From Dehalococcoidia bacterium (GTDB lineage Bacteria > Chloroflexota > Dehalococcoidia > DSTF01 > JACRBR01), in NCBI GenBank assembly GCA_040902535.1, contig JBBDXD010000010.1, positions 1 to 64,000 of the forward strand: a stretch of DNA of 64,000 bases. The letters are read 5' to 3'. The notes beneath the pieces are model-generated. The model was not told where the DNA came from and searched no databases. It worked only from the letters and a program-made list of their open reading frames with translations. Position numbers and translations under genes: made by a program. Shown piece after piece: positions 41,759-42,826 of the stretch (its first letter is position 1; each line of letters opens with the position of its first letter).

Positions 41759-41986
41759 ATTCGGCGGTCCAATCCGCGTAATAGAGCACCTTTATGGTAG
41801 CAGTCGTCGGGATCCTGCGGCTCTCGGCGTGGCTTCGCCGGGCACTGGAGGCTGGAAGCCGGAGAGTGGAGCCTCGTCGCTGCACCCCGCATAGATGCTC
41901 GACGCTCGAAGCTGTGCCGAACGCCACCGCCGACGGTTACCGCAGTCTAGCCTCCAGCCTCCAGCCTCCAGTGCTCGAACGCGAGC
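41759..41986. repeat. Non-coding region with CTGGAGG/CCTCCAG heptads
   Basis: Three tandem CCTCCAG heptads (41951-41971) and an inverted CTGGAGG at 41845-41851 followed by CTGGAAG. No gene is evident. The 7-bp period matches the repeat at the left edge of the window, although the word differs. Confidence 0.6.
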
Positions 41987-42016
41987 TTGTCTCTCTAACC
42001 GCCTCGCTGTTACTAT
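41987..42016 (+). promoter_or_regulatory. Promoter of the speD leader
   Basis: -35 TTGTCT (41987-41992), 18-bp spacer, -10 TACTAT (42011-42016). Transcription would start near 42023, 227 nt before speD. Confidence 0.5.
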
Positions 42017-42155
42017 GATTGTCGCGTGTCCGATGGGATCGCGAAGACAACACGTAGGCTACAGCGCTCGATAGCGAGACGACCAAGGGCCTGGCTGGCA
42101 GCTTTCGCCGTGGTGCGGGAGTGCCGGGGGCCTTTTGCGTTGCACGGAGGACATC

Positions 42156-42188
42156 ATGGACGCAGACAAACCGCGAGAGTTTACCTAG
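42156..42188 (+). CDS. Candidate speD leader peptide, 10 residues
   Basis: ATG at 42156 with GGAGGACATC directly upstream, codons for MDADKPREFT and a TAG at 42186-42188. The stop lies 3 bp before the 8-bp hairpin at 42192-42210. Translation of the peptide could thus affect hairpin formation. Small upstream ORFs control S-adenosylmethionine decarboxylase in eukaryotes; a bacterial parallel is an inference. Confidence 0.4.
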   Translation: MDADKPREFT

Positions 42189-42191
42189 CGT

Positions 42192-42210
42192 CCCGGACGG
42201 ATCGTCCGGG
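42192..42210 (+). promoter_or_regulatory. Perfect hairpin CCCGGACG-GAT-CGTCCGGG in the speD leader
   Basis: An 8-bp perfect stem with a 3-nt loop, 39 bp upstream of the speD ATG. No U-run follows, so it is not an intrinsic terminator; it could be a translational switch or a pause site. Confidence 0.6.
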
Positions 42211-42249
42211 CATTCTGTCCGCCTTAGCGGATGAGAAGGGATTGGAAGA

Positions 42250-42663
42250 ATGCACATTACGATCGACGGGTTCGGAGGCAACTCCGCTCAGCTCAGTGAC
42301 CAGGAGCTGGTCCGCAACCTACTCGACCGCTATCCGGACGAAATCGGAATGACCAAGATCTCGGAGCCGCACGTCTTCGAGTACCACGGCGTGAAGGAAG
42401 ATGACTGGGGCGTCTCAGGCTTCGTCCTCATCGCAGAAAGCCACATCGCGGTCCACACGTTCCCGGAGCACGGTCAGGTCTGGGTGGACATTTTCTCCTG
42501 CAAGGGTTTTGAAGAGACGCCGGCGATCGACAGGATCGTCGAGGCGTTCGGGCTGCGTTCGACGCGGATCAACAGGCTGGAGCGCGGCCTGGAGTACCCG
42601 CACGATGTCGATGCGAGCATCCCGCTGAACCGGCAGGAACGCAGGGAGGTGACGCCGGTCTAG
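42250..42663 (+). CDS. speD: S-adenosylmethionine decarboxylase proenzyme
   Basis: 137 residues, the short prokaryotic class 1B enzyme. Self-cleavage between Glu63 and Ser64 ([14 protein letters not shown]) makes the pyruvoyl cofactor from the serine. His69 and Cys84 (IFSCKGF) are the other known catalytic residues. The product, decarboxylated SAM, feeds spermidine synthesis. A strong terminator follows. No speE lies nearby. The long leader with a short ORF suggests control by polyamines or SAM. Confidence 0.95.
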
Positions 42664-42722: not shown

Positions 42723-42777
42723 TATGCCGATCCCATCGTACAATCATCGAACCTTGAGGACAGGCGGGATGACTTGA

Positions 42778-42826
42778 ACCACAGAGACACAGAGGCACAG
42801 AGGCACAGAGGCACAGAGGCACAGAG
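42778..42826. repeat. Left CACAGAG array flanking the GxxExxY gene
   Basis: Tandem CACAGAGG-type 8-mers preceded by ACCACAGAGACACAG. The first 26 bp (42778-42803) are the perfect inverted copy of 43383-43408. Between the two copies lies exactly one gene, so the array pair looks like terminal inverted repeats. Confidence 0.85.

Follow-up and report, generated by a model that had tools for sequence, protein, structure and literature searches.

In eukaryotes, the upstream ORF of the AdoMet decarboxylase gene AMD1 encodes the peptide MAGDIS and acts through a scanning mechanism. In bacteria, short ORFs are known in the leaders of polyamine genes, including SpeFL and MdtU (PMC7815308) and the odc1 motif (PMC8632094), and the speF leader of Salmonella with its short ORF (PMC6386406). 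Polyamine genes, speD among them, may also be preceded by the spermidine riboswitch, which is a variant of SAM-I (PMC10853860). Our literature search found no description of a short-ORF leader for speD in Chloroflexota.

Here, we analyzed the leader of a speD-type gene in a 64,000-nt stretch of DNA from a Dehalococcoidia bacterium (GenBank assembly GCA_040902535.1, contig JBBDXD010000010.1, positions 1 to 64,000 of the forward strand; hereafter the window). The speD leader of this Dehalococcoidia (Chloroflexota) family is a conserved and previously undescribed RNA control region, which contains a tiny ORF and a helix hiding the start codon of speD. It sits between the promoter and speD and is kept in all eight genomes of the family, and its parts follow each other in the order promoter, H1-H2, H3, short ORF, H4, H6/H5 and speD (Table 1). 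A sequence-only reading of the window had described the 10-codon ORF MDADKPREFT 61 nt ahead of speD, a perfect 8-bp hairpin 3 nt after its stop codon and a terminator-like fold with a U-run in front of it, and all three are present in the sequence as described.

Table 1. Features of the speD locus, in positions of the window.
Feature	Position	Strand	Description
Sigma-70-like promoter	41987..42016	+	TTGTCT, 18-nt spacer, TACTAT; read from aligned leaders
H1, 5′ hairpin	42023..42043	+	CGCG-U-GUCC/GGAU-CGCG; conserved; at the expected transcript start
H2, small hairpin	42067..42078	+	CUC(G)/(C)GAG, followed by conserved GAGACGACC; alignment A1
Basal extension of H3	42078..42143	+	GACGAC with GUUGUC; RNAalifold on A1; partly broken in the window (GUUGCAC)
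H3, terminator-like hairpin	42086..42136	+	ends in GGGGGCCUUUU; all family leaders; hairpin 42086-42132, UUUU 42133-42136
Short ORF, MDADKPREFT*	42156..42188	+	ATG at 42156 to TAG at 42188; GGAGG at 42146-42150
H4, perfect 8-bp GC hairpin	42192..42210	+	CCCGGACG-GAT-CGTCCGGG; RNAalifold on A2, 8/8
H6, start-hiding helix	42210..42253	+	GCAUUCU (42210-42216) with AGAAUGC (42247-42253); RNAalifold on A2; contains the speD AUG
H5, hairpin inside H6	42218..42231	+	UCCGC-CUUA-GCGGA; leader sequences
speD-type pyruvoyl decarboxylase	42250..42663	+	Pfam AdoMet_dc; ATG at 42250

The sample consisted of eight metagenome-assembled genomes of a single family, two of which (L003 and L005) are nearly identical. 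After reorientation of the minus-strand loci, the eight leaders aligned from the −10 box through to speD. Their mean pairwise identity was 0.18–0.35 upstream of about position 41980, where the sequences do not align, 0.57–0.83 over positions 42010–42219, and 0.42 over positions 42220–42249, with the highest value (0.83, positions 42070–42099) in the H2-H3 region and not in the ORF. The sequence-only reading had staked its case on conservation of the short ORF or the stems in close relatives, and both were found, the ORF being at the same place in 8/8 genomes and some of the stems carrying compensatory changes. The promoter was not called by a consensus promoter scan of the window, and its assignment is therefore deduced from conservation; five other leaders have TTGCGG, TTGCGA or TTGCAG at the corresponding place, followed after 17 nt by TACCAT, TACAAT or TATGAT. 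Just 5′ of the promoter (41842–41974) lies an inverted repeat (GCACTGGAGGCTGGA...) whose arms measure about 24 bp. It is marked by a weak, probably spurious microRNA match and may be a REP-like or small mobile element.

When the 393 class genomes were scanned with a covariance model of the leader's 5′ half, each of the eight family genomes gave one strong copy, only at speD, and the rest gave no comparable match, which indicates that the element belongs to this family and to speD alone. Among the weak matches of this model, the one inspected (L054) had no speD in the 651 bases read. Likewise, no unit of ORF plus hairpin was found outside the family. In L022, weak R1 and R2 matches adjoin speD; they were not taken up as homologues.

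That the ORF and the hairpins arose by chance in an intergenic region rich in GC is very unlikely. As chance would allow, the folding of the whole 239-nt leader was not exceptional (z = −1.08), and short ORFs led by a Shine-Dalgarno sequence were not in excess when 48 SpeD leaders from the class were scanned (16 against 13.8 in shuffles), so that about 14 in 48 are expected by chance. However, chance accounts neither for conservation in 8/8 genomes next to unalignable sequence upstream nor for the covariation of H6 and the coding signal of the ORF (see below). We regard this explanation as refuted for the leader and as possible only for the ORF itself. Since the folding z-score is only −1.08, the case for the leader rests on comparison across genomes.

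In the 5′ half, H1 shows one compensatory change, in which a U-A pair is replaced by C-G on both sides in two sequences. H3 is nearly invariant in sequence, with a stability of −28 to −35 kcal/mol across the family leaders. As a stable hairpin followed by a U-run (UUUU), it has the form of an intrinsic terminator, and it was not listed by a stricter terminator scan that requires five T in eight. Its short UUUU, together with conserved bases after the U-run that pair back (GACGAC/GUUGUC), is odd for a plain terminator. Terminator-like hairpins upstream of speD are enriched class-wide, being present in 22 of 49 class leaders as against 3–6 in shuffles, and by eye H3-like hairpins ending in GGGGGCCUUUU are also present in L010 and L015. 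A different recurring terminator-like hairpin, e.g. CCAGUCUCC...GGGGGGUGG and then a U-rich stretch, was seen in leaders of other families (L030, L061, L063, L070 and L077; similar in L027, L029 and L062), in most of them about 25–40 nt before speD. The hexamer UGCGUU, which follows directly on the U-run of H3 (42136–42141), could pair with the speD start (42249–42254, AAUGCA) in all eight leaders; this possible second partner of the start was seen by eye, and the 6-bp match was judged to be within chance and rejected.

The short ORF has 9, 10 or 14 codons in the family, and the encoded peptides are MDADKPREFT in the window and MDCGKQTGFT (twice), MDSCKQTGFT, MDSNKPGFT, MEADRTGTQVRPFT, MDDCRQTGFT and MEAATSVQAQTGFT in the other genomes. 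All of them begin with MD or ME and end with FT, and the stop codon is always TAG. The differences in length are multiples of three, by which the frame is retained, and the third codon positions vary whereas the FT-TAG end is fixed. Over the last five codons, substitutions favor synonymous codons or similar residues in the frame of the ORF (z = 2.95, P = 0.0012; P = 0.0011 with the second codon added), and the same test gave no signal at 0.05 in the other five frames. We infer from the sequence that the ORF is translated. The strong ribosome site noted in the sequence-only reading does exist in the window as GGAGG, but it is nearly specific to this genome and is not conserved in the family: a Shine-Dalgarno match of at least 4 nt precedes the ORF in only two of the seven distinct leaders, namely the window (5 nt) and L004 (4 nt), and translation of the ORF is therefore not assured. 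The scan left out L003 and the near-identical L005, neither of which has such a match by eye.

These results bear on the possibility of a structured RNA switch, either a riboswitch or a protein-binding leader, that works via H3 and H6 and in which the short ORF is incidental or minor. We consider this possible but somewhat unlikely. It would agree with a peak of conservation that lies over H2-H3 instead of the ORF, with the lack of a Shine-Dalgarno sequence before most of the ORFs, and with the class-wide occurrence of terminator-like hairpins upstream of speD without a conserved ORF. It does not explain why the frame of the ORF survives changes in length and why codon-like substitutions appear in one frame only. 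Moreover, a search of the window with the Rfam 15 covariance models (E up to 1) returned nothing relevant, no known riboswitch family was matched at the Rfam gathering score in the speD loci of the family, and the 3′ half of the leader has no conserved unpaired core of the kind typical of an aptamer. A c-di-GMP-II-GAG riboswitch above the Rfam gathering score was observed in the speD locus of L020 (642–731, minus strand), which belongs to a different family of the order.

In the 3′ half, both H4 and H6 were recovered by RNAalifold unaided from the 3′ alignment A2. H4 begins 2–5 nt past the stop codon of the ORF across the family and shows one compensatory change (G-C to A-U), and the two outer pairs of H6 covary, with both sides changed in two and three sequences, respectively. 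The hairpin H5 occupies the same place in the relatives with a different sequence, and its support in a per-leader shuffle test was modest. The predicted probability that the speD AUG is unpaired averages 0.05 in the family, as compared with 0.52 in 42 SpeD leaders of other class families and 0.40 at 12 other starts of the window. A ribosome modeled on the stop codon of the ORF left H6 in place in 6/8 leaders, and H6 weakened only in L002 (from 0.90 to 0.59) and L009 (from 0.71 to 0.07). Ribosome-driven switching, which the sequence-only reading implied, is thus not clearly supported by the predicted folds, which give no clean switch, and coupling of the ORF to speD would have to be deduced from the arrangement of the parts.

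One form of such coupling would be a simple boost with no sensing, in which ribosomes brought in by the ORF, having terminated, either melt H4/H6 or reinitiate at speD. In all members of the family the AUG of speD is hidden, and the ORF ends 61–69 nt upstream of it, so that help with opening may be needed. However, this gap is long for reinitiation, and the fixed C-terminal FT and TAG would be unnecessary for mere coupling, and we consider this explanation quite unlikely.

The gene under this control is present in all eight genomes, and the SpeD of the window is 82–87% identical to those of the other seven. It scored 72.8 bits against TIGR03330, below the equivalog cut-off of 75.65. When the class genomes were split by SpeD type and the presence of spermidine synthase was defined as a strong match (E below 1e-59), the synthase was found in 0/21 genomes with only the SpeD type of the window, 26/27 with both types and 12/12 with only the other, classical type (38/39 for the latter two groups together); none was found in the genome of the window. 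SpeD homologues without SpeE have been reported to decarboxylate arginine (SpeDA) or ornithine (SpeDC, for which four diagnostic residues were described), and one of them is from Chloroflexota (Li et al., PMC10407285). The genome of the window fits this SpeDA/SpeDC pattern of a SpeD homologue without SpeE and with agmatinase and/or a SpeY-type enzyme, as it encodes a homologue of deoxyhypusine synthase as well as two agmatinases that score above the model cut-off, while no agmatine deiminase was found in it. Because of the score below the family cut-off and the occurrence of this SpeD type without spermidine synthase, the gene is probably not an AdoMet decarboxylase but an arginine or ornithine decarboxylase. 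The route that fits the genome best is predicted to run from arginine to agmatine, putrescine and homospermidine, with ornithine as the alternative. More generally, a whole group of the Dehalococcoidia genes annotated as AdoMet decarboxylase probably has another function.

Several other observations were made at speD loci. In a Microcystis phage record, three genes adjoin one another: one for a classical SpeD (143.9 bits), one for a SpeD of the window type (65.3 bits), and speE. In several families (L018, L023, L026, L027, L029, L030 and L075), a small gene stops a short distance ahead of speD; its product resembles an excisionase-type helix-turn-helix protein, with RIRKEDLDRWYEGKL or a like sequence towards the end, and is possibly a transcriptional regulator. 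In the window, the intergenic regions 3′ of speD contain tandem simple repeats of the CACAGAGG type (42777–42826 and from 43379 onward).

Regarding the mechanism, the sequence-only reading had likened the locus to attenuation by a leader peptide, but the ORF lies downstream of the terminator and its ribosome cannot affect termination there. For the same reason, an amino-acid attenuator of the classical type, where a ribosome stalled on regulatory codons by starvation alters a downstream terminator, is extremely improbable: a short ORF beside hairpins in a biosynthetic leader is what it would look like at first sight, yet H3 precedes the ORF and no stretch of regulatory codons, for arginine or otherwise, is conserved, and we rejected it on both counts. 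With H3 out of reach of the ORF's translation, control probably involves two separate steps, and the start-hiding H6 makes translational control of speD a natural second step. The only simple role for the ORF would be to affect the translation of speD. Because H4 follows the stop codon after 2–5 nt, a ribosome at the last codons must open H4, and control of speD by the ribosome is plausible.

We tentatively favor, with slightly more doubt than confidence, a family-specific cis-regulatory mRNA leader of about 225 nt that exerts two-stage control of a SpeD-type polyamine decarboxylase, with the short ORF between the two stages. At the first stage, RNA polymerase would encounter H3, where putative termination would let only some transcripts continue. 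At the second stage, in the full-length mRNA, H6 would keep translation low by pairing GCAUUC with the start codon of speD. Ribosomes translating the ORF to its FT-stop would run into H4, which is predicted to stack on H6. Arrest or slow termination at this stop, with a polyamine, arginine or ornithine as the putative signal, would probably alter speD translation in one direction or the other, whether because H4/H6 is loosened, because a ribosome is retained close to the start or because the RNA is protected. A bolder proposal, which we regard as unlikely, is that the nascent peptide, with Phe-Thr-stop at its end, halts the terminating ribosome when a polyamine or its precursor is sensed and so switches translation of a neofunctionalized SpeD, as an independently evolved bacterial counterpart of the eukaryotic AdoMet decarboxylase uORF. 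If the leader works as we propose, Chloroflexota and the SpeD fold would be added to the cases in which a short ORF controls polyamine synthesis, here with a peptide and a leader unlike those of SpeFL, MdtU and odc1, and this would support the view that polyamine enzymes of unrelated lineages have repeatedly come under ribosome-sensing leaders.

We regard the speD leader as a new form of the kind of control known from the polyamine short-ORF leaders. The sequence-only reading had drawn a parallel to the eukaryotic AdoMet decarboxylase uORF. Both are very short ORFs upstream of a gene of the AdoMet decarboxylase superfamily, but the peptides and the gene classes differ, and the parallel weakens since the gene here, of a SpeD type found without spermidine synthase, probably encodes an arginine or ornithine decarboxylase. 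The SpeFL peptide is longer than the peptides of this family, which have 9–14 residues and the form MD/ME...FT. Like the ORF described here, SpeFL (orf34) of E. coli and Salmonella speF is a short ORF upstream of a polyamine amino-acid decarboxylase (PMC7815308, PMC6386406), and a stall near the stop codon with RNA structure downstream may be counted as a further likeness, the arrest being conjectural in our leader. It is unrelated in sequence, however, and regulates an ornithine decarboxylase of the PLP type, with ornithine as its signal and by way of Rho. The odc1 motif (uORF-25-1) of alpha-proteobacteria shares an ORF of about ten codons, a conserved peptide and a decarboxylase initiation region held in a helix, whereas its ORF, with a fixed length of 11 aa, begins at a distance of 2 nt from the main start (PMC8632094); here, an ORF of 9–14 codons ends 61–69 nt upstream of a gene for a SpeD homologue. 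The MdtU uORF of E. coli mdtJI is also a short ORF in a polyamine-related leader with its C-terminus most conserved, but it has 34 codons and controls an exporter, and the involvement of spermidine and Rho has been demonstrated for it (PMC7815308). With the spermidine riboswitch, our leader shares the position of a cis-regulatory RNA before polyamine genes, while it has no match of the SAM-I type. As odc1 differs in geometry and SpeFL in peptide, the leader is assigned to neither, and these two systems are closer parallels to it than the eukaryotic AdoMet decarboxylase uORF.
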